IMG/VR virus record: IMGVR_UViG_3300025010_000093
Span: 1-48,154 of that record
Length of the DNA: 48,154 bases
Source: a virus
Direction: 5' to 3' (one strand)
Positions 36,777 through 46,695 of the stretch are shown in pieces. The translations under genes were made by a program, and so were the position numbers. Below the pieces are notes generated by a model. It made no database searches, was not told the origin of the DNA, and saw only the letters and a program-made list of their open reading frames with translations. The first letter of the stretch is position 1; each line of letters starts with the position of its first letter.

Positions 36777-36797
36777 TAAAAAAGACCCTTGCAGGTC
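36777..36797 (-). terminator. Terminator-like hairpin before the scaffold gene
   Basis: Minus strand GACC-N6-GGTC then six T and ATTG. The roughly 90-nt leader that follows contains two further hairpins (GCGGG...CCCGC and CCC/GGG arms near 36700-36770) before the scaffold start, so expression of the capsid genes could be tuned here. Confidence 0.65.
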
Positions 36798-37131: not shown

Positions 37132-37485
37132 CTAACCTCCATAATCAGGTAATATAATATCCCGTTTCAACATTTCACCTTGATGTGCAACACTTCTGAA
37201 CGTCTGCCCTGTAGGGTCTACATCGTACCCACTGGCTAAATATGACGAGTAGGTTATAGGGTATTTGGTGATTGTCCCACACTTCCTGCAAGTAGCTTGA
37301 CCACCCTTAGACCACATTGCCAACCCTTCACAGTGTCCACACACCGGAAGTCTGGTTAATGGGTAACGCCCTTCTATCACCGTCATGTTGCGGATTTCAT
37401 CATTGTTTAGAACATGTTTTAAGTGTTTGTTGCCATTAAAGACAACCTTAACGATTTCGTTATGTTCTTGAATTGATGCCATTTG
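37132..37485 (-). CDS. Zinc-ribbon protein downstream of the portal, 117 aa
   Basis: Start ATG at 37485 with GGGGGTGG; overlaps the portal end by 26 nt. C-terminal Cys4 zinc ribbon: CGHCEGLAMWSKGG and CRKCGTITKYP. The N-terminal half is charged alpha/beta. Function unknown; coupling to the portal gene suggests a head-assembly role. Confidence 0.65.
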   Translation of the reverse strand, partial: QMASIQEHNEIVKVVFNGNKHLKHVLNNDEIRNMTVIEGRYPLTRLPVCGHCEGLAMWSKGGQATCRKCGTITKYPITYSSYLASGYDVDPTGQTFRSVAHQGEMLKRDIILPDYGG

Positions 37486-39367
37486 CACCACCCCCAGACA
37501 TAACAGGCCTACCATCTGCCCCTATTGCTGCTGTAGCATCTTGAAGCTGCTGGCCTTGGGTGACTTGGTTCAGCATACCTTGTGCGCCGTTTTGCCTTAT
37601 CAAGTTAGCTTGTGAACCGCCCATCGTTAAGCCGCTTTGATCGTCAATCTCGATCGGAAGTCCCAAAAAGTCCTTGATAAACTTTCTGAATTCCTCATAG
37701 TGGATAAGGTTTCTAGGCTGTCCGTTTTCATCAAGTGATTGTAAAGCGGCAAGCCTTTCAAGCATCTGCCATAAGAAAGTTTTATTCTTCGGAAGTCCTG
37801 CGCCGATGTTGATTTCAATGTCAAGGTCAACCGATTTGGTAACATCCTTGCCGCCTTCCTGCATAATCTCCCATTCCGGAGAAGGCAGGTCCGGATTTCC
37901 TTCTCTGAACTTCTTTTGATATGCCTGTGTAGCAGGTTTCATAGCTGGTACAGAAGTCATTTTGCGGAAGTCAACCCACTGGAAGTCTGCTTTATCTTCG
38001 CTAAGTCTAAACGCTTTTGCTTCGGTGTAATGTTCCATCATCAGCCCTAAACAGTATTGGCAAACTTCTATAAGCGTTTCTTGCAACATGAGTTTCTTGT
38101 GGTCCGTTGACAAGTACCCTTGCTGTTGCTGTATGCTAGCCTGTGTTGCTGTGTCTGAACTCTTGCCCTGTCCAACCATCAAATCGGAGAATCGTGTTAC
38201 TCTCTGCGCTTCAACGTGAATTCTGTCTAATAAACTCCACCATGCTTCATTTATTATGCCGTATTCAACTTTATGTACTGGAACACCATTTACGGTTGAG
38301 CCTTCGTAATATCGTGGTTCAAGTGAGTTTTCATCGAAGTCTGACAAGTCAACCTCTGCATTGGTGTCAATCAATATTAAGTTCGGCCTTGCACAGATTC
38401 TTATTTTGTCGTACAGTTCATTAATCAGCTTTTGCAGAGGTAACAGTAGCTTACCGTCACCGAAACCGTATAGCTCTCCTTCTTCCGGATACATAACGGT
38501 TATAAAGCAAGGGTAACGGTCATTGACAAATTTGTAATATGATTTAATATTCTTCTCGGCTGACTTCTGATTGTCTGTTCTACTGCCTTTTTTGTGGGAA
38601 TCATACAGTAGAAGTCCATCACCGCTGATTTCCATAAGCCTTAACTTGCCTTTTTGCCTTGACCACAATAGAAGGATATGAGCAGAATCTTCATCGTCAA
38701 GCGTATCGTCACTCTGGAACACTCCATTGTCCTTGTATAGCAGACTACCGAAGTCAACCATATCTGCCTTTTCTTTGCCGTATCGTTCCTCAAAATAAGT
38801 CTTGGAGGCTGTTACAATCTCGCAGATATAATCTGCTTCCTGGAATCTCAATGGATCCTTTATCTTTCCATCGACAAGTAGCTTATTCAATGGTGTAGGA
38901 TAGATTTTAGCAAGCCCAAACTTGCCTATTGCTTCACTGTCCCAGCTTACCGTAAATGCGCCTATCCCGAACTTTAACCTTCTGCGTTCATGGGTAGCAA
39001 GCACAAGTTTTATCTTATTCTTGCGAAGTGTCCAATCAAGACCGATTCTCGCCCATTCTGCAAACGGTTCATCGGAAGGACCCTCTCCCCTTGTCGTTAC
39101 CGCTATGTTCTGTTCAACAAGCTGAGATACTTGCCCCTCGATGTTGGCGTTCATTATGTTTACTTTTGAATTAGGCTTCTTATCTACGTCTGGCTGACTA
39201 TTTGAATAATAGTTTTCAATATCTTCCCACTCTGCAAACCGCGTACCCATATCACCTATGCGTTGGTTTAACTTTGATATGTAGTTATTGACCATCGTCA
39301 TTTCGTCTTTGGTCATAAACTTTTCACGCTTGCTATCTTTCGTTTTTCGCCAATCCTCTGAATTCAT
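37460..39367 (-). CDS. Portal protein, P22-like
   Basis: 635 aa from the ATG at 39367, placed 8 nt after AAAGGGG. Size and features fit large podovirus portals: MGTRFAEWEDIENYYSNSQP near the N-terminus, RRLKFGIGAFTVSWD, PCFITVMYPEEGELYGFGDG, then the stem region LLPLQKLINELYDKIR, and a Gln-rich C-terminus (TQASIQQQQGYL; VTQGQQLQDATAAIG) that may form the barrel. The dodecameric portal is the DNA gateway and docks TerL. Unusually it is separated from terL by about 5.8 kb of other genes. Confidence 0.88.
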   Translation of the reverse strand: MNSEDWRKTKDSKREKFMTKDEMTMVNNYISKLNQRIGDMGTRFAEWEDIENYYSNSQPDVDKKPNSKVNIMNANIEGQVSQLVEQNIAVTTRGEGPSDEPFAEWARIGLDWTLRKNKIKLVLATHERRRLKFGIGAFTVSWDSEAIGKFGLAKIYPTPLNKLLVDGKIKDPLRFQEADYICEIVTASKTYFEERYGKEKADMVDFGSLLYKDNGVFQSDDTLDDEDSAHILLLWSRQKGKLRLMEISGDGLLLYDSHKKGSRTDNQKSAEKNIKSYYKFVNDRYPCFITVMYPEEGELYGFGDGKLLLPLQKLINELYDKIRICARPNLILIDTNAEVDLSDFDENSLEPRYYEGSTVNGVPVHKVEYGIINEAWWSLLDRIHVEAQRVTRFSDLMVGQGKSSDTATQASIQQQQGYLSTDHKKLMLQETLIEVCQYCLGLMMEHYTEAKAFRLSEDKADFQWVDFRKMTSVPAMKPATQAYQKKFREGNPDLPSPEWEIMQEGGKDVTKSVDLDIEINIGAGLPKNKTFLWQMLERLAALQSLDENGQPRNLIHYEEFRKFIKDFLGLPIEIDDQSGLTMGGSQANLIRQNGAQGMLNQVTQGQQLQDATAAIGADGRPVMSGGGANGINSRT

Positions 39368-39390
39368 CAGCATCACCCCTTTTTAAGCAA

Positions 39391-39430
39391 TAAAAAAAGA
39401 GACCACCCACCGGTTAAGGTGAATGGTCTC
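39391..39430 (-). terminator. Strong terminator closing the nonulosonic-acid cassette
   Basis: Minus strand GAGACCATTCACC pairs with GGTGGGTGGTCTC (one mismatch) around a TTAACC loop, followed by seven T and ATTGC. It separates the Com-like gene from the portal gene and resembles the hairpin at 43023-43060. Confidence 0.87.
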
Positions 39431-39438
39431 AATGGACT

Positions 39439-39588
39439 CTACTTCATATTAATTGAATATTTGTTTTTGCATCGGTTGCACAACCGTATAATGTCTGCAC
39501 TCTCTGTACTTTTGGAAACAGTTATATCATCCGTTTTAGCATCTGCAAATAGCTGATCGCAGTAAGGACATCTTAAAGGCTTATCCAT
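39439..39588 (-). CDS. Com-like zinc ribbon, 49 aa (downstream copy)
   Basis: Start ATG at 39588 with GGGAGG; overlaps the preceding 54-aa gene by 8 nt. Two Cys pairs, RCPYCDQLFADAK and LCNRCKNKYS, form a small zinc ribbon in the style of phage Mu Com, a translational activator. Last gene of the neu cassette, directly before the terminator. Whether it regulates translation here is unknown. Confidence 0.65.
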   Translation of the reverse strand: MDKPLRCPYCDQLFADAKTDDITVSKSTESADIIRLCNRCKNKYSINMK

Positions 39589-39745
39589 CCTTTTTCCTCC
39601 CAAGTAATCCGTCATTGTTGCGGTACTTCTCATATTTGTCTGGCTTGCCCTTGTTAAATTGAATTATGCCGAAATTAGCTAACAACGCCAAACTTGCAAG
39701 GCATATGGCAAATGTTGATAATATAACTGAAATTAAAACTTCCAT
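39581..39745 (-). CDS. Small membrane protein of the neu cassette, 54 aa
   Basis: ATG at 39745 lies inside the neuA stop region, and the stop overlaps the Com-like start, so both ends are coupled. One membrane segment at the very N-terminus (VLISVILSTFAICLASLALL), then a basic tail (KGKPDKYEKYRNN). Could anchor a product or partner at the membrane. No homologue recognised. Confidence 0.65.
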   Translation of the reverse strand: MEVLISVILSTFAICLASLALLANFGIIQFNKGKPDKYEKYRNNDGLLGRKKDG

Positions 39746-40359
39746 TCAAGTACACCACCCTTCAATAATGCTTCTGCCATCATCATATCCTCATAGGAAT
39801 CTATATCAATGCTGCGGCTGTACGGCATCTCATATTTTGTCGCTGTTTCATCCCACAACTTATTCTGTTTAATAAGTTCCCGGGAAGTAATGAAGATTGC
39901 ACCATTCCTTTGAAAATGTTTCTCGCTTGTGTGCTTATCATATGGCTTGTCTGTCTTGATACCCATGTAGTAGCCACTGTATAGGCATGTAGCGTTTGAA
40001 CCTCGGTAAAGCTGTATTGCATCATCAATGTCCTTCGCTGTCCGCAGAGGGCTTGTAGGCTGTAAGAGGCATATGGCGTCTATGTGCTGAGCGAATGCTC
40101 TCTCATATGATTCAATAACGCTTTTTACAACTGGCATCATAGGCGTATCATCTTGGGCGAGTTCTTTAGGACGTTTGATAAATTTACATCGCCCATCCAA
40201 ATAATCGAAGGAATCGCTTGATATGACAATTGAATCAATCTTACTGCCCAATGCTGCATTTATTGTGTACTTGATGAGTGAAATATCGTATAATGGATAT
40301 TTATTTTTGTCCTTAATACCTTTTGAATTAGCCCTTGCAGGAATCAACCCTAAAATCAT
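39733..40359 (-). CDS. neuA: CMP-nonulosonic acid synthetase (NeuA-like)
   Basis: 208 aa. Activates a nine-carbon sugar with CTP. Motifs: LIPARANSKGIKDKN (CTP-binding P-loop-like signature), VVISSDS, RPKELAQDDTPM, ICLLQPTSPLRTA, RNGAIFI and the SIDIDSYEDMMMAEALL end that carries the Mg-binding Asp pair. Slightly shorter than cellular NeuA (about 220-230 aa) but all signature regions are there. ATG at 40359 after GGAGGT; overlaps the neuC end by 32 nt, indicating coupled translation. Confidence 0.92.
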   Translation of the reverse strand: MILGLIPARANSKGIKDKNKYPLYDISLIKYTINAALGSKIDSIVISSDSFDYLDGRCKFIKRPKELAQDDTPMMPVVKSVIESYERAFAQHIDAICLLQPTSPLRTAKDIDDAIQLYRGSNATCLYSGYYMGIKTDKPYDKHTSEKHFQRNGAIFITSRELIKQNKLWDETATKYEMPYSRSIDIDSYEDMMMAEALLKGGVLEWKF

Positions 40360-41338
40360 TTTTCAATACCTCCACAATTTTATTTGCTGTATTCCCATCT
40401 CCAAACCTGTAATCTCGTTCATACCTTCCGTGTTTTATAAGCTTTTTTATTATTGAAAGAATATCGTCTTTATCGTAGTCTAAAAACCATACATTTTTTC
40501 CGTGTTCCCTGTTGTGCTGTCTCTTGCCCACAATAATTGCAGGAATCCCATAAAATGCACCCTCTTTGATAAAACTTGACGAATTACCTACACAACATTT
40601 TGCATTGTAAATCAACCTCAAATATTCGTTAGGGTGAAGGTCTTTGACAAACTCAACATCCTGCTTATGAATCAGCTTCAACATTGCCTTACTTCCTGCA
40701 TCTGTGTTCGGGTTCACCCACACTTTATGTATATTTATACATTGCAATGCATCCACAAGCGGCAACATGCTCTCAGGGTCTGTAGTGTTCGGATGATGAA
40801 GGATAACAATGTATGGCTCTGCGCGTGTATTGGTCAGGTCAACATCATTTGTCAAAGCTGTACTTCCCACTACATGCACATTCTTAAAACCCATACGCCT
40901 TAGTTTGCGCCCAGCTTTCTCTGTGACAGGAAAATGTATGTCTGTTAGCGCAGATATAGCATAGCGTACCTTATTGTCGATTGTGCCAGTATCCTCACCG
41001 CCCTCTGAATGGGCAAGGGGGATATTCATATATGCCGCTGCTATTGCAACCGCTAATACTTCGTGTCTGTCTGCATGGACAAATACCAAATCTGGTTTTA
41101 GTTTCTTCAAGGCATCCGTAACTTTGATGGTCAGCAATCCTGCTGTGAGCGCCATTGCTTCGGTATCGTCACCGCTTAACTGTGATTGTATGCGGAAGTC
41201 AGGTTCAAACTCATTTTGGGCATTATAAAAGCTGCAACCATATATCAATTGCAGCTCAAAGTTTTCCTTTACCGCTTTTATGACGGAACGTAAACGTCCA
41301 AAATTGGCACGGGATAGAACACATATACATATTTTCAT
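40328..41338 (-). CDS. neuC: UDP-GlcNAc 2-epimerase, hydrolysing type (NeuC-like)
   Basis: 336 aa. Supplies N-acetylmannosamine from UDP-N-acetylglucosamine. GT-B fold motifs of the WecB/NeuC family: VFVHADRHEVLAVAIAAAYM, IPLAHSEGGEDTGTIDNKVR followed by YAISALTDIHF, VVGSTALTNDV, and the UDP-site region GNSSSFIKEGAFYGIPAI with GKRQHNREHG. The SEGGE-TGTID form is typical of NeuC-like enzymes. Other NulO routes use a similar enzyme on a diacetylated sugar, so the exact substrate is open. ATG at 41338 after GTAGGTG. Confidence 0.9.
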   Translation of the reverse strand: MKICICVLSRANFGRLRSVIKAVKENFELQLIYGCSFYNAQNEFEPDFRIQSQLSGDDTEAMALTAGLLTIKVTDALKKLKPDLVFVHADRHEVLAVAIAAAYMNIPLAHSEGGEDTGTIDNKVRYAISALTDIHFPVTEKAGRKLRRMGFKNVHVVGSTALTNDVDLTNTRAEPYIVILHHPNTTDPESMLPLVDALQCINIHKVWVNPNTDAGSKAMLKLIHKQDVEFVKDLHPNEYLRLIYNAKCCVGNSSSFIKEGAFYGIPAIIVGKRQHNREHGKNVWFLDYDKDDILSIIKKLIKHGRYERDYRFGDGNTANKIVEVLKNDFRVDSCKG

Positions 41339-41345
41339 TTGTCAC

Positions 41346-42161
41346 CTACACAATATGATTATTCAGATCGTAATTAATCTCGCCAATTGCACCGTCAAGC
41401 TGTTTTACTCCTGCATCTAACTGTTCCATCTTCCTTTGAAGATTTTCAATTTCAGCAAGCATACCGTTTTTGCGCTGTTTCAGTTCATTCTTGCGAGTTT
41501 TCTTCTTTAATCTCACTTGATTGTCTGTGTCAAATCCGTAATCTTGTGGAAATTTGCACAGTTCACTGTTGCGAGGAATGAGGACTTTTATACCTTTGCC
41601 GGCCGCATAACCTATGAAGAAATTACAGCTTGGCCGCTGAAATTGGTATTCGCTTTGCTGCGCCATATCCACGCCGGTAATCCAGATTTCTTCATACCAT
41701 TCATATATTGCAAGGGCCACCATCCATGAAATGCTATTGCTGTATTCAGTAAATGGACTTCCTGCCTCGTTGATGATGAAATTTTGATTGAAATATTCCT
41801 TGATTTCCTCTCTCGGATATGCCACCGACATAGGAATATCGTCGTAGTGTTCCTGCATAAAAATAGGAACCTTACAGTTCCTTAAGAATTCCGTATGTTC
41901 TTTTGTGTTCTTGCTTGGACTGTCGGGGGAATGAATCTCAAACCACCTGTCCGCCCTGCCGTTCTTGATTTGCTGGAACAGTTTGTAGGCTTCGTTGAGC
42001 GTCCACACCTCCATTGTCGGGTCATCAAACGGGGTAAGTGTCCATGAAGGAGCAAAACCCATGATGCAGACACGTTTCCTTCTTACTTCTTGCTTCTCAA
42101 CCGCCTCAACCAATGGCTTCAATTCCTCTTGAATCTTCGTTATCTCTGTAATCTTATCCAT
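41346..42161 (-). CDS. DUF115/GT42-like protein ('norphogenetic protein' family)
   Basis: 271 aa. N-terminal Rossmann-like motif RVCIMGFAPSWTLTPFDDP, then EVWTLNEAYK, DRWFEIHSPD, SISWMVALAIYEWYEEIWIT followed by GVDM, and SCNFFIGYAAGKGIKVLIP; the C-terminal 50 residues are a basic coiled coil. Similar phage proteins near terminase/portal genes are annotated 'norphogenetic protein'. The order of motifs also recalls DUF115/Maf and GT42 sialyltransferases, but the catalytic His of CstII-type enzymes is not seen. In this cassette it is the natural candidate to bind or transfer the CMP-sugar (inference). Confidence 0.65.
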   Translation of the reverse strand: MDKITEITKIQEELKPLVEAVEKQEVRRKRVCIMGFAPSWTLTPFDDPTMEVWTLNEAYKLFQQIKNGRADRWFEIHSPDSPSKNTKEHTEFLRNCKVPIFMQEHYDDIPMSVAYPREEIKEYFNQNFIINEAGSPFTEYSNSISWMVALAIYEWYEEIWITGVDMAQQSEYQFQRPSCNFFIGYAAGKGIKVLIPRNSELCKFPQDYGFDTDNQVRLKKKTRKNELKQRKNGMLAEIENLQRKMEQLDAGVKQLDGAIGEINYDLNNHIV

Positions 42162-42274
42162 TCATTTATCTCCTTATTTTTCTCCAATTCTTTTTTAAAT
42201 GCTTCAGTATAGATTTTATAAAATTCTTCGGGGTTTTCTTTGATAAAATTATATATCGCCGTTCCCAACAACAT
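42140..42274 (-). CDS. Small helical protein of the neu cassette, 44 aa
   Basis: ATG at 42274 overlaps the neuB end by 26 nt (ribosome site GGGAG), and the stop lies inside the next gene. Product MLLGTAIYNFIKENPEEFYK..., an amphipathic helix with a charged tail. No domain. Overlap at both ends argues that it is translated. Confidence 0.5.
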   Translation of the reverse strand: MLLGTAIYNFIKENPEEFYKIYTEAFKKELEKNKEINEWIRLQR

Positions 42275-42992
42275 TTGACCATCTCCCTTTATAAAGCGGA
42301 ATTTTTGCTTTGTAGTTCCTGTAGTCAACCAGCTCTTTGAATTCGCTTACTGTACTTGAAAACTTATGATCGTTCCCAGGTAAATCCTTGCCTAATGTAA
42401 AATGGCGTTCAATGTACTCCATTCCCATATCAATAGCTTTTTTGGCGCATTCAATATCTGCTGTATGGTCTGAAAAGCCGTCGAATAGCGCCATCTTGTC
42501 AAAGTCTATTTCATTCTTAGGGCATGGGTAACGGGATACGCAATAAAAAGCTGTATGATATTTGATTATTTCATGTGCTTTTCTGTTACTTACCATGCCA
42601 CAGCTAACAAGCATATTGCTGAAATTCTCTGTGCAGTATTGCATTAGTGGCTCATTGTCTGCGTCCGGTGAAGCTATCTTTACAATATTTATGCCTAACT
42701 CTTTCAACATCTTCGCCTTGTCAAGTGAAAACGCCGTAAACAGCGGCTTCATGCCATATTCCTTACATTTGGATATAATAAAAGTGTGGTCACTAGGAGA
42801 TAACTCAACGCTTCGGTAATATTCCTTTGACTTTTCGTAGTCTGGCCATGCAGGATTTAGCTTTTCTGCGTTGAAGGATTGCCACTTTATGTAGTCTACT
42901 CCCGCCTCCGCTAACAACTTTATGCCTTGTTCCATTATCCGCCTGCTGCCCATATGGTTTGAACAAAAATCTCCAATAATTTGTGTACTCAT
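42249..42992 (-). CDS. neuB: Nonulosonic acid synthase (NeuB-like), catalytic domain only
   Basis: 247 aa from the ATG at 42992 (GAAGGGA at a spacing of about 8). Condenses phosphoenolpyruvate with an N-acetylhexosamine to give a nine-carbon acid. TIM-barrel motifs: IIGDFCSNHMGS, VDYIKWQSF, VKIASPDADNEPL, CVSRYPCP, GFSDHTADIECAKKA and the metal-site region ERHFTLGKDLPGNDHKFS. The usual C-terminal SAF (antifreeze-like) domain of about 60-70 residues, which lids the partner's active site in NeuB dimers, is absent. The gene ends cleanly and overlaps the next one, so this is not a simple frameshift. Confidence 0.88.
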   Translation of the reverse strand: MSTQIIGDFCSNHMGSRRIMEQGIKLLAEAGVDYIKWQSFNAEKLNPAWPDYEKSKEYYRSVELSPSDHTFIISKCKEYGMKPLFTAFSLDKAKMLKELGINIVKIASPDADNEPLMQYCTENFSNMLVSCGMVSNRKAHEIIKYHTAFYCVSRYPCPKNEIDFDKMALFDGFSDHTADIECAKKAIDMGMEYIERHFTLGKDLPGNDHKFSSTVSEFKELVDYRNYKAKIPLYKGRWSNVVGNGDI

Positions 42993-43022
42993 TCGGTATC
43001 TCCCTTCATTATTTTGAGCAAT

Positions 43023-43060
43023 AAAAAAAGACCTGCCTCCCAATTAAGGGAAACAGGTCT
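43023..43060 (-). terminator. Strong terminator upstream of the nonulosonic-acid cassette
   Basis: Minus strand AGACCTGTTTCCC/GGGAGGCAGGTCT with TTAATT loop, followed by seven T and ATTGC. It lies only 30 nt before the neuB start, and no promoter fits between, so the cassette needs read-through or antitermination. Confidence 0.87.
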
Positions 43061-43072
43061 GCTTGAGACGCT

Positions 43073-43474
43073 TTATATTCTTATGTGCATTTTTAAATCG
43101 GTTTTGGGGTGTATTTTTTTATATCGTTTTCTTCCTTGTATCTTCCATAATTTTCTAACATGCTCTGTATTATTGTTGCAATACTTTTTTTTACGTTTAT
43201 TTATGAACTTCTTGTTGGTTTTGTAATACTCTTTTTTTCGTTCCTTGATGCGTTCTTTGTTAGCGTTATGGTACTCTTTATTTTTTTTTGAAATAATGTC
43301 TCTGTCTATTTTTCTTTGTCTTTCCTTGGATGCTTCCTTTTCCCTTTCCTTATACGTAATGTTTGTATGATACATAACTGTTTTATGACACGTGTTAAAA
43401 TATTTTGCTATCACCCTATAACTCATTCCAGATTCACGCATTACCCGCATTTTAGCAATTGTCAGTTCGTCCAT
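43073..43474 (-). CDS. Highly basic HTH protein, 133 aa
   Basis: Start ATG at 43474, 2 nt past the upstream stop, with GAGGTG. Residues 1-40 form a resolvase/HNH-associated-type helix-turn-helix (RVMRESGMSYRVIAKYFNTC). The rest is a long Lys/Arg/Asn helix with repeats of the form NKERIKERKKEYYKTNKKF, like proteins of the 'NKE-R-K-YY-NK' repeat type often linked to HNH endonucleases. No HNH core remains. DNA-binding is likely; it may be a decayed homing-endonuclease relative. Confidence 0.6.
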   Translation of the reverse strand: MDELTIAKMRVMRESGMSYRVIAKYFNTCHKTVMYHTNITYKEREKEASKERQRKIDRDIISKKNKEYHNANKERIKERKKEYYKTNKKFINKRKKKYCNNNTEHVRKLWKIQGRKRYKKIHPKTDLKMHIRI

Positions 43475-43475
43475 A

Positions 43476-44177
43476 TCACACCTCAATAAGCAATTCTAAT
43501 GTTTTGCTTATTTCTGATGTAAATTTTTCAACCCTTTCCTGTTGGTATTCCTTGTCTGTTTTTGAAAGAAAATGCTTAATTTTTGGTATTTTTTCATTAA
43601 CAAAAGAAACAATATCAATTAACAAGGCTTCTGCTTCTGCTTCAAACCTTTTATTGGATTGTGCCAATATTAAATCCTTTTGTGCTGTTACCTCTAACAG
43701 TTGGTCATATCTTTTACTAATAATTGATTTCTCTTGCTTTTCCTTTTCGTACTTATTTTGCAATTCATCAACTTCGGGTGTGATTTTTTCAAGTTCCTTT
43801 TTAAGCTTTGCGTTTTCTTTTTTAACCTCAATTAAAGCTTTGGCGGTCTTGACTTCGCCCTTTAAAACCTTTTCTTTAAGTTCAGGTGTAGTATCTTCTT
43901 TTCCATATTCAATAACAAGCTGTATTGGTAGCTTTTGTAATTTACCGCAGTTTTGCTCGTTTATTTCATAGTATTTAACGTAGTTTCTTGCACATTCAGG
44001 GCTTATCCCAACTTTAACAACCCATTCTATAAAGTTAATATCTGTGCCCTCAAGCCTTGTTTTTACGTTTTTCAATATTTTGCCGACATTATATACGGTT
44101 GCTATTAATGAATTTTTGATTTCACTTTCCTTTTGATCTAAATAGTCATTTAAACTTAAATCTATTGTATTTTCCAT
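43476..44177 (-). CDS. DUF3102-like coiled-coil protein
   Basis: 233 aa from the ATG at 44177 (AAAAGGAG at a spacing of about 10). The N-terminal 80 residues match DUF3102: YNVGKILKNVKTRLEGTDIN, then VKVGISPECARNYVKYYEI. Residues 110-175 form a long coiled coil, followed by a helical C-terminus. DUF3102 proteins occur in phages and plasmids and are thought to bind DNA, but no function is established. Sits between the Com-like gene and the basic HTH gene. Confidence 0.7.
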   Translation of the reverse strand: MENTIDLSLNDYLDQKESEIKNSLIATVYNVGKILKNVKTRLEGTDINFIEWVVKVGISPECARNYVKYYEINEQNCGKLQKLPIQLVIEYGKEDTTPELKEKVLKGEVKTAKALIEVKKENAKLKKELEKITPEVDELQNKYEKEKQEKSIISKRYDQLLEVTAQKDLILAQSNKRFEAEAEALLIDIVSFVNEKIPKIKHFLSKTDKEYQQERVEKFTSEISKTLELLIEV

Positions 44178-44193
44178 ATTTGACACGCTCCTT

Positions 44194-44349
44194 TTATTTT
44201 GGTGTGCTTAAGTTTATAATTCCTTTGCTTGTAACCACTACATGAGTGGTTGCCCCACATTTGGGACATATTTTCTTAACCTCTCCCAATGCTTCAAGAA
44301 GAAGTTTGCCACATTTTACACATTTTACAGGCATTACTTCTATGCTCAT
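44194..44349 (-). CDS. Com-like zinc ribbon, 51 aa (upstream copy)
   Basis: Start ATG at 44349 with AGGAGG. VKCVKCGKLLLEALGEVKKI and CPKCGATTHVV show the C-x2-C-GKLL...CP-x-C layout of Mu Com, which melts an mRNA hairpin to allow mom translation. Here it follows the dehydrogenase gene. A Mom-like GNAT is encoded far away at 4473, not adjacent as in Mu, so a direct regulatory link is speculative. Confidence 0.72.
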   Translation of the reverse strand: MSIEVMPVKCVKCGKLLLEALGEVKKICPKCGATTHVVVTSKGIINLSTPK

Positions 44350-44359
44350 TGGCATCCTC

Positions 44360-45160
44360 CTATAATCCATCATATTCAAAAGTAAATTTCGGCTGATTAA
44401 TAAATTCAACAATTTTGTTTGCAATGTATACGTCTGTAGCTTTTCTGGCTTCAAGGCAGTTACCACCGATATGAGGTGTTTGAATAACATTGCCTAGCCC
44501 TTCATATCTGCTGTCGTAAAAGTCAGATGCGTAAGATATTTTGTTTTGGCATAATGCGGTTAATAGTGCGTCATGGTCAACAATCTCAGCCCTACTTGTA
44601 TTCACCAATAACGCCCCCAGTTCCATCATTGCGAATTCTTTTTCGCCAATCATACCGCGTGTAGAATCGTCTAAAGGAACGTGAAGGGTGATGATGTCGG
44701 ATATGCTTAGCCATTTGTTGTCTATGCCTTTATCCCTAAAAGCAACAGTCATATTAAAAGCTTCTGCATATTTCGCCACTTGCTGACCTACTCTGCCATA
44801 ACCGATTATGTGCAGCGTCTTTCCTTTTAACTGCATCCTGTTCATCTTTGCCAACTGCAATATCAAACTCCATGTGTGTTCGGCGGTACTTGTTATTTCT
44901 CTGCCCTCATTGGCTTTCCAATGTTCGTCAAGGTGGATTATTGGCACGTTGCTCCTGTTTGTGATGTGGTCGATTCCAGTACACGGGCATCCGATAAATT
45001 TTAGGCAAGGATAGTCTTTGGTGTCTACACAGGTTAGCCCTGTATAAATACCTTCGTATGTGTTAGTCCATCCATTTCCTTTTGTTACCTCTGCCACTTC
45101 CTCCATGATCGCCCTTGCTTTGGGGTGGGGTTCGTCTAATAGTAAAATTTTCGGTTTCAT
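44360..45160 (-). CDS. D-2-hydroxyacid dehydrogenase family protein
   Basis: 266 aa, shorter than the usual 310-330. NAD-binding motif LHIIGYGRVGQQVAKYAEAF in the middle, GCPCTGIDHI from the substrate domain, LHVPLDDSTRGMIGEKEF, catalytic Arg in LVNTSRAEIVDHDALL, and the catalytic His in TPHIGGNC. The N-terminal substrate domain is trimmed. It would reduce or oxidise a 2-keto/2-hydroxy acid. Its place beside a keto-acid sugar pathway is suggestive, but no link is shown. ATG at 45160 after AAAGGAG. Confidence 0.82.
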   Translation of the reverse strand: MKPKILLLDEPHPKARAIMEEVAEVTKGNGWTNTYEGIYTGLTCVDTKDYPCLKFIGCPCTGIDHITNRSNVPIIHLDEHWKANEGREITSTAEHTWSLILQLAKMNRMQLKGKTLHIIGYGRVGQQVAKYAEAFNMTVAFRDKGIDNKWLSISDIITLHVPLDDSTRGMIGEKEFAMMELGALLVNTSRAEIVDHDALLTALCQNKISYASDFYDSRYEGLGNVIQTPHIGGNCLEARKATDVYIANKIVEFINQPKFTFEYDGL

Positions 45161-45171
45161 AGAACTCTCCT

Positions 45172-46695
45172 TTATTTTTTATTTGGCATTGCCAATACTT
45201 TGATTTCTCCGTTCTTCTCCATCATGCGGATTTTAGCATCACTGTAGCCCTTCTGCTTCAGCTCACCGTAGACGTATACGCCGCTTTGTTTTATATTGCT
45301 TTCCGCAGGTATAACAGCAGGTGATTGCCTCGATACACAAAAGCACCGTAAAGCATCTAAAAGATGTGTTAGGTCATGGGGTTGTGTTGCGACATCGTTT
45401 GGGTTTTTATCGTCCTTTTGGATATTAGTTATAGACTTCCATAGATCAGGCGCGACACCTTCATCTATCGTCAAGTTGGCTGTCCTGTAAGTTTCTCCTG
45501 TTTGCTCATTTCTCGCATCATACGGCCTTATCCACTCTTTGACAGCTATCCAGCCGGATTCTCTATCGTTGGATGTCTTTATAAGCTTGACACCGTTTTC
45601 ATGGAATATTGTAAACGCAGACTTTCCTGTGTCATTTCGTCTATTCCATAGGTCAGGCGGCGCATAAAATGAGTGTATATTCTCACTGCCTGTCAGCTTT
45701 AATATTGCTTTTGCTGCCTCGGATACAATAAGATTCTTTTTTATGAATTGCCTGTATATCCTTGCTTTGTTTTGGGTATCAACATATATCCACAATACCG
45801 CCGTAGCATCAAGCCCATAGTCAAGGCAGACAAAACGTTTGTAGTACTCTGGTATGATAAGACTAGGCTGTACAATATGAATTTCCTTCCGCATTTCAGG
45901 GAAAGCGAATCCACATAAAGAAGTAAATTTTCCGTACTGTCTGGCTTCTCTTTCTTCCTCGGTCATAGTGGAAACAAGCTTGTTAATTTCATTCTGCGAT
46001 AGCCACGGGTTATCTTCCCATTCTGCCATCCAATACTCAACGTCAGGATCATTTCGTTCATTAAGGTAAATAAGGTTATACACAAATGTGAGACCTTTCA
46101 ACGGTGTCATGGTAAACCATATATCACCTTCGGTATCAAGCACACGCATTTGGCATTCTTGGAATATTTCAAGTGGCGGTTCTTCATCAAACCATATCCA
46201 GCCTTGCGAAGTACCTTGAAAACTTTCCCTTCCTTGTTCGCAAGTTTTAAAGCCTATCGTTTGACCATTCTTTAATATGATCTTATCTATAATAGAGTTT
46301 GCCGGATCATCCTTCCTGCCATGGCGTATTACAAAGTCTTTGATTTCACTCTTTGGCAGCCAGTTTAGAATCTCTTTCTGGGCAACATCACGCTGAACCT
46401 CGTTCGTGAGAGAGACAACCCATCCTGAAGAAGCTATGAGTTTTCTAAACCTGCTATTACCTGTAGCATGACATACACCTTCGACAGCTCCTGCGACAGT
46501 TTTTCCAACCCTGTTACCACCAAAAAAAGCCTTCGATCTCTTAGCACTAGAATGAAAGGCTATCTGCTTTTTATGTATCTTCTCTCCTGTGTTGTATAGT
46601 TCAAGCCGTCCTTCTTTTCTCCTGCGTTCTATCTCTTTAAGGTTAGCTTCTACCTTCGCCCGTATCTCTTTTACTCGCAATTCTTTCTCGTCCAT
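45172..46695 (-). CDS. terL: Terminase large subunit
   Basis: 507 aa. ATPase: Walker A FFGGNRVGKTVAGAVEG, Walker B region QGWIWFDEEPPLEIFQE, coupling motif WFTMTPLKG. RNase-H-like nuclease: FVCLDYGLDATAVLWIY and a distal acidic region near HDLTHLLDALRCF. Terminase_6-like layout. It pumps DNA into the procapsid through the portal and cuts it. ATG at 46695 after GTAGGTG. It precedes the accessory block rather than the portal, an unusual order. Confidence 0.95.
   Translation of the reverse strand: MDEKELRVKEIRAKVEANLKEIERRRKEGRLELYNTGEKIHKKQIAFHSSAKRSKAFFGGNRVGKTVAGAVEGVCHATGNSRFRKLIASSGWVVSLTNEVQRDVAQKEILNWLPKSEIKDFVIRHGRKDDPANSIIDKIILKNGQTIGFKTCEQGRESFQGTSQGWIWFDEEPPLEIFQECQMRVLDTEGDIWFTMTPLKGLTFVYNLIYLNERNDPDVEYWMAEWEDNPWLSQNEINKLVSTMTEEEREARQYGKFTSLCGFAFPEMRKEIHIVQPSLIIPEYYKRFVCLDYGLDATAVLWIYVDTQNKARIYRQFIKKNLIVSEAAKAILKLTGSENIHSFYAPPDLWNRRNDTGKSAFTIFHENGVKLIKTSNDRESGWIAVKEWIRPYDARNEQTGETYRTANLTIDEGVAPDLWKSITNIQKDDKNPNDVATQPHDLTHLLDALRCFCVSRQSPAVIPAESNIKQSGVYVYGELKQKGYSDAKIRMMEKNGEIKVLAMPNKK

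Follow-up and report, generated by a model that had tools for sequence, protein, structure and literature searches.

Sugars are added or altered by phages on their hosts, on DNA and, in a few known cases, on virions. The present study concerns a set of genes predicted to make a cytidine monophosphate (CMP)-activated nonulosonic, i.e., sialic-type, acid in IMG/VR virus record IMGVR_UViG_3300025010_000093, positions 1-48,154 (48,154 bases, the whole stretch being called hereafter the window). The closest described systems are: (i) the bacterial neuBCA/nab clusters (e.g., the Moritella capsule locus and the Omnitrophota glycan locus L045), in which homologues of NeuB, NeuC and NeuA are encoded in one operon; (ii) the prophage enzymes EpaA and EpaB of Acinetobacter baumannii, which act on a nonulosonic acid (PMC12053666); (iii) the mycobacteriophages, whose capsid and tail proteins are glycosylated by phage-encoded enzymes (Freeman et al. 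2023, cited in PMC12619734), the capsid and tail tube subunits bearing their glycans C-terminally, with no nonulosonic acid pathway described in the passage concerned; (iv) the cytoplasmic glycosylation of flagellin with nonulosonic acids by Maf or FlmG (FlmG: PMC7591256), whose logic is proposed here for the phage, a soluble enzyme loading a CMP-nonulosonate onto a self-assembling protein before assembly.

As in the bacterial clusters, NeuB, NeuC and NeuA homologues are grouped in the window. Unlike them, the phage set lies in the late block between the large terminase subunit (terL) and portal genes, has a minimal NeuB and a GT42-like protein with an added coiled coil, and is devoid of export or polymer genes. 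EpaA and EpaB merely epimerise host-made pseudaminic acid for the capsule, whereas the lineage of the window encodes the whole CMP-nonulosonate route as a core trait. Phage editing of nonulosonic acids (PMC12053666) and glycosylated virions (mycobacteriophages, cited in PMC12619734) are thus known; what appears new is a whole pathway inherited like a structural gene, of which no report was found. The literature search, from which most subscription journals were outside, gave no complete CMP-nonulosonate pathway as the core of a phage lineage.

The best reading of the sequences is a self-contained route to a CMP-nonulosonic acid followed by a candidate transferase. This had been proposed in the initial annotation, with virion decoration, receptor alteration or host mimicry as possible roles, and agrees with the conserved residues of NeuB, NeuC and NeuA and with the GT42-like nature of the fourth gene. 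Since the set was kept and inherited along with the particle genes, the sugar may well be placed on a component of the virus itself or of its host. By strong homology, NeuC would act on a uridine diphosphate (UDP)-sugar and free N-acetylmannosamine (ManNAc) or another 2-epimerised hexosamine akin to it, the SAF-less NeuB would join this product to phosphoenolpyruvate (PEP) to give the nonulosonic acid, and NeuA would activate the latter to CMP-nonulosonate. The GT42-like enzyme with its coiled-coil tail may then move the residue late in infection. The acceptor might most likely be a virion protein in the cytoplasm, in a Maf/FlmG-like manner, a host surface glycan being less likely. One or several dehydrogenases, together with a methyltransferase found in relatives, probably modify either the sugar or the acyl group on it.

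A virion protein is tentatively preferred as acceptor in view of the late position of the genes, their core status and their tie to the portal. We give an even chance to a lineage-core CMP-nonulosonate pathway of an uncultivated temperate podovirus-like group, with late transfer, most likely to a virion protein. A stronger version is put forward tentatively, as somewhat doubtful: the whole lineage would depend, for the building of its particles, on a nonulosonic acid of its own making, possibly a novel one (methylated or oxidised), which a new family of GT42-related coiled-coil transferases would set on a virion protein; CMP-nonulosonate synthesis would then be a part of virion morphogenesis. 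If the particle is decorated, a virus would here clearly be glycosylating itself with a sialic-type sugar through enzymes that it encodes, and host recognition, shielding and immune clearance would be affected. Apart from this, the chemistry of its small, separable enzymes (SAF-less NeuB, mini UDP-sugar dehydrogenase, GT42-like transferase) lends itself to in vitro tests without the phage.

Enzymes of the predicted pathway

Searches with hidden Markov models (HMMs) assign the three enzymes to the families expected from the initial annotation: PF03102 for NeuB, PF02350 and TIGR03568 for NeuC, PF02348 for NeuA. The expected catalytic residues, which are those that count in the characterised enzymes, are kept and are near-invariant in the phage homologues.

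NeuB matches PF03102 with E=2e-41 and 142 bits (cut-off 22), and its nearest solved structures are NeuB, SpsE and PseI. Its true start is most likely the ATG at 42992, preceded by the ribosome-binding site AAGGGAG and leading to 247 amino acids (aa), rather than that of a longer open reading frame (ORF) with a TTG start. Residues K53, Q55, K122, S125, H193, H214 and D225 (264-aa numbering) are near-invariant in 24 phage NeuBs; the reference residues for PEP, metal and substrate (Lys, Gln, Lys, Ser, two His and Asp) are those of N. meningitidis NeuB. A classical NeuB with its SAF domain has about 335-350 aa. This C-terminal SAF/antifreeze domain is absent from the NeuB of the window, which is limited to the barrel. 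The SAF-less form is common to the whole phage clade and to some cellular homologues, and the structure of a 290-aa NeuB homologue has been solved (6ncs).

NeuC matches PF02350 with E=4e-56 and is above the cut-off of NCBIfam TIGR03568 (256.2 bits vs. 235.9). Its nearest relative in the PDB is the epimerase domain of human GNE (E=9e-46). Residues R10, H88, D90, H110 and the GG motif 113-114 are near-invariant in the phage homologues (sets of 23-25 sequences, as for the dehydrogenase below). NeuA matches PF02348 (CTP_transf_3) with E=5e-14 and the CMP-N-acetylneuraminic acid (CMP-Neu5Ac) synthetase 6ifd with E=3e-22. It has the CTP_transf_3 pattern, i.e., the N-terminal Arg/Lys, QPTSPLR and DxD motifs, and R9, K18, Q100, D185 and D187 are near-invariant in 23 phage homologues.

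The D-2-hydroxyacid dehydrogenase belongs to the conserved sugar set: it is found upstream of neuB in nearly all the relatives that extend that far. Its Rossmann GxGxxG motif and catalytic R190 and H230 are near-invariant. An S-adenosylmethionine (SAM) methyltransferase and a mini UDP-sugar dehydrogenase are frequent in the sets of relatives. The latter, a nicotinamide adenine dinucleotide (NAD) enzyme of about 235 aa that occurs neither in the window nor in L003, models as a shortened UDP-sugar 6-dehydrogenase (pLDDT 89, E 4e-12) and has an invariant Lys and a GHC cysteine motif. On account of these three enzymes the product may not be plain Neu5Ac.

The pathway could even lead to another keto-sugar activated with CMP, or to a small derivative that is methylated or oxidised; the hydroxyacid dehydrogenase would then catalyse a central step and the SAF-less NeuB would act on a substrate other than ManNAc. 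The separation of the SAF-less NeuB clade from full-length NeuB (98/98), the near-universal dehydrogenase with its frequent companions and the same combination in Omnitrophota cluster L045 point in this direction. Yet NeuC is above the cut-off for hydrolysing UDP-N-acetylglucosamine 2-epimerases and the key NeuB residues are kept, so that a ManNAc-like substrate is the simplest. A different sugar is considered quite unlikely; at the level of transfer it is compatible with the best explanation.

The GT42-like protein

The fourth gene models as a GT42-type sialyltransferase fold. The AlphaFold model (pLDDT 79) has only GT42 sialyltransferases among the top 12 Foldseek matches in the PDB (best E 4e-5, prob 0.99-1.00), and a profile built from 10 homologues has the Campylobacter Cst-II sialyltransferases as best PDB matches (E 0.002-0.02). 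In the HMM alignment with Cst-II, N56 is paired with an Asn and Y172 with the second Tyr that are conserved in this enzyme. The predicted fold is thus like that of Cst-I/Cst-II; the phage protein differs from them by a very low identity, a catalytic His counterpart that is not conserved and an added coiled coil. The model ends in a long, coiled-coil-like C-terminal helix, and the homologues are likewise extended there.

No significant Pfam match was obtained for the protein of the window. In its homologue of contig L033, CST-I (PF06002) and DUF115 (PF01973) are matched below cut-off (E=0.04 and E=0.008, respectively). This very weak MptE-like (DUF115) match, in one homologue only, is the sole link to Maf on sequence. 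Of the label "DUF115/GT42-like" given in the initial annotation, the GT42 part is supported at the level of the fold (12 of 12 top folds); a DUF115/Maf identity drawn from Pfam alone is unsupported, profile and fold searches both pointing to GT42. FlmG is a modular protein unrelated to the phage GT42-like protein.

The GT42-like gene of the relatives has one of two places: within the sugar set, or behind the capsid gene, where the tailspike gene is often its neighbour. It directly follows the major capsid protein (MCP) gene in L018, L021, L129, L130, L132 and L139.

GT42-like homologues also occur in dozens of phage contigs outside the portal lineage (among L158-L214). In L165, L187, L189, L195 and L205 such a homologue and a NeuB of another branch are found within about 9 kb.

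Conservation, co-divergence and origin

Relatives were gathered by scans with NeuB, the portal and the GT42-like protein, and their gene order was tabulated with HMMs. A selection on the portal only was used in order that relatives were not picked by their sugar genes. The order is: terL, hydroxyacid dehydrogenase, (SAM methyltransferase), NeuB, (GT42-like protein), NeuC, NeuA, (NAD enzyme of about 235 aa), small membrane protein, (zinc ribbon), portal. The terL-portal interval thus holds the same gene set across many divergent contigs; a synteny comparison of this interval had been suggested in the initial annotation. Sugar genes lie upstream of the portal in 21 of the 23 portal-selected relatives having at least 500 bases upstream; this count means NeuA at least, and a fuller set where the contig extends further.

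The pairwise divergence of the sugar proteins follows that of the portal, with Mantel rho values of 0.75 (NeuA), 0.69 (NeuB), 0.66 (NeuC) and 0.64 (dehydrogenase), p being about 0.001. The values for comparison genes are 0.64 (scaffold), 0.40 (MCP) and −0.01 (terL). This co-divergence spans contigs down to 36% portal identity; it must be noticed that the sampling is not fully independent, since L018, L019 and L022 are closely related. The ratio dN/dS of 0.05-0.13 (L018 vs. L022) indicates purifying selection.

These results bear on the choice of acceptor. With the same pathway, the residue could be put on a host surface glycan, by lysogenic conversion or by late receptor masking, and would then block superinfection or the trapping of progeny on debris, like phage glycosyltransferase or EpaAB-type systems. 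Lipooligosaccharide is the acceptor of the known GT42 enzymes, and the integrase and antirepressor genes mark the phage as temperate. The pectate-lyase-like domain of its tailspike indicates that surface sugar matters. There is also the precedent of prophage EpaA-EpaB, which change pseudaminic acid on the A. baumannii capsule (PMC12053666). However, the sugar genes (i) are found among the late structural genes, away from the integrase; (ii) start too close to the upstream hairpin (about 27 nucleotides, nt) to have a promoter of their own there; (iii) co-diverge with the portal; (iv) are accompanied by no flippase, lipid carrier transferase or O-acetylase. Transfer to a host glycan, the main rival, is thus considered unlikely, and a virion protein stays the preferred acceptor.

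In the maximum-likelihood NeuB tree, the 24 phage sequences form one clade (support 100/99). It is nested in a clade of SAF-less cellular NeuBs (98/98; Nitrospirota, Omnitrophota and Rokubacteria among others) that is distinct from full-length NeuB; this is the outcome of the phylogeny against cellular neu genes proposed in the initial annotation. In a quick NeuC tree, the phage sequences are grouped with five cellular genomes bearing a SAF-less NeuB (0.98). Both proteins thus fall with the cellular SAF-less NeuB loci, and in the Omnitrophota locus L045 NeuB, NeuC, NeuA, dehydrogenase and methyltransferase are encoded in a row. A single old acquisition is likely because phage NeuB is one clade inside the SAF-less cellular clade; the simplest scenario is that such an operon was taken up once, long ago, between terL and portal and has since been passed on vertically together with the virion block. 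The "acquired cassette" of the initial annotation must therefore be replaced by a lineage-core block co-diverging with the portal. A recent acquisition is ruled out by the G+C content, identical for the sugar cassette and the genome (40.2% for both), by the portal co-divergence and by the single deep phage NeuB clade.

Database searches were also done. Among about 50,700 GenBank phage records, no true phage matches NeuC or NeuA. The only match, FPLJ01000048.1 (L257), was rejected, as it is a chromosomal capsule locus of Moritella viscosa misfiled as phage. For NeuB, an uncultured phage of 484 kb is matched as well (23%). A portal profile gave no match in genome contigs searched for prophages. 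In about 800 genomes of two Bacillota centres' groups it was absent or gave single-fragment weak matches (E 2e-4 to 9e-4), and in Nitrospirota it was found in 0 of 246 genomes.

Weighing of the proposed pathway

Several results must be set against a complete pathway acting on a virion protein. The SAF Arg, which contacts ManNAc in N. meningitidis NeuB, is missing together with the SAF domain. NeuA is above no curated equivalog cut-off, the best being TIGR03584 (PseF) with 82 bits vs. 206. The GT42 fold match reaches a TM-score of only 0.4-0.5. Among 23 GT42-like homologues there is no near-invariant His beyond residue 89, and no conserved counterpart of His188 of Cst-II, the GT42 general base. 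H77 or another residue could serve as base since the HMM alignment with Cst-II did not reach this loop; the catalytic His being not conserved, the protein is a putative transferase, GT42-like in fold only. Moreover, the GT42-like gene does not co-diverge with the MCP gene (rho 0.12) and thus gives no clue to the acceptor.

Lastly, the portal relatives L123 and L140 are without sugar genes. The region upstream of the portal is rearranged in L123. In L140 (32% portal identity), terL, one membrane-like ORF of 85 aa and the portal are in succession, in agreement with the remark of the initial annotation that the portal gene closely follows terL in many phages; this arrangement fits the state before insertion. 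One may ask, on the basis of these two contigs, whether the sugar genes are chance passengers without specific role, i.e., ordinary auxiliary metabolic genes or an assembly artefact, host-like sugar genes being a common cargo of phages. But the same gene order is found in many independent metagenome contigs, and purifying selection, portal co-divergence and one ancient phage clade are opposed to it. This explanation is very improbable and can be regarded as largely refuted already.

Organization of the terL-portal interval

The window also carries genes for an integrase, a major head protein, an internal virion protein, an SU10-type adaptor, a pectate-lyase-like tailspike, an antirepressor, DnaB and an amidase, which is the gene content of a temperate podovirus-like phage. 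The sugar block is on the late (minus) strand, amid structural genes (Table 1). All the ORFs listed in the initial annotation are present there, abutting or overlapping one another between terL and portal; the list itself had overlooked the D-2-hydroxyacid dehydrogenase.

Table 1. Position of the features of the terL-portal interval in the window.
Feature	Coordinates	Strand	Basis
Large terminase subunit (terL)	45172-46695	-	homology to phage TerL; one border of the interval
D-2-hydroxyacid dehydrogenase-family enzyme, 266 aa	44360-45160	-	PF02826, E=8e-31
Intrinsic-terminator-like hairpin just upstream of neuB	43029-43060	-	13-bp stem, −23.6 kcal/mol, z −5.8
NeuB-type nonulosonic acid synthase, TIM-barrel only, 247 aa	42249-42992	-	PF03102
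ORF of 44 to 47 aa between neuB and the GT42-like gene	42140-42283	-	phrog_26053 (unknown function), E=1e-5
GT42-like putative glycosyltransferase with C-terminal coiled coil, 271 aa	41346-42161	-	fold and profile matches
NeuC-type hydrolysing UDP-N-acetylhexosamine 2-epimerase	40328-41338	-	PF02350, TIGR03568
NeuA-type CMP-nonulosonate cytidylyltransferase	39733-40359	-	PF02348
Membrane protein, 54 aa, C-terminal KYRNxDGLL motif	39581-39745	-	similar protein before portal in relatives
Zinc-ribbon protein, 64 aa	39439-39633	-	two pairs of Cys; weak matches to zinc-ribbon Pfam families
Intrinsic-terminator-like hairpin between block and portal	39399-39430	-	13-bp stem, −22.7 kcal/mol, z −6.6
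Portal	37460-39376	-	phrog_156 portal, E=4e-16; other border of the interval

The two hairpins with T-tracts reported in the initial annotation are real: no shuffled sequence folds as well as either of them. The distance from the T-tract of the upstream hairpin to the neuB start is too short for a separate promoter, thus bracketing by hairpins is no sign of independent expression. A search for a conserved operon promoter gave consensus matches only modestly above chance. A T-tract hairpin precedes the portal in 7 of the 26 contigs tested; the hairpin before neuB was rejected as a conserved feature (2 of 24). Upstream of the scaffold gene there is another hairpin (36784-36797, minus strand), shorter than these two and with an identical TTTTTTATTG tail; the three look like related intra-operon terminator-like elements.

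The 54-aa membrane protein seems to be part of the portal block. A counterpart lies directly before the portal in L123, where sugar genes are absent, and such a small membrane protein goes with the portal rather than with the sugar set because L140, with its 85-aa ORF at the same place, fits the pre-insertion state. Counterparts of the zinc-ribbon protein are found before the portal in L003, L017, L023, L031 and L035.

Some variants of this organization were observed. L126 has NeuB and NeuA, no detectable NeuC and two GT42-like genes. In L018, L019 and L022, where the portal and sugar genes are conserved, terL is of another type, not detectably homologous to that of the window over most of its length; terL thus behaves as a module in this lineage. 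A calcineurin-like phosphoesterase gene follows this other terL in the three contigs, and in L018 terL is also interrupted by an HNH-like ORF. The end of contig L022 (7330-7958) repeats parts of neuB and of the portal gene in inverted order and is probably an assembly chimera. In the window, the interval between the dehydrogenase gene and neuB (43073-44490) has a G+C content of 32% vs. 40% for the genome. It is possibly a later insertion; its ORFs (a 98-aa zinc ribbon, a 236-aa phrog_1733-like protein and a 137-aa HTH_38-like protein) are without counterparts at that place in most relatives.

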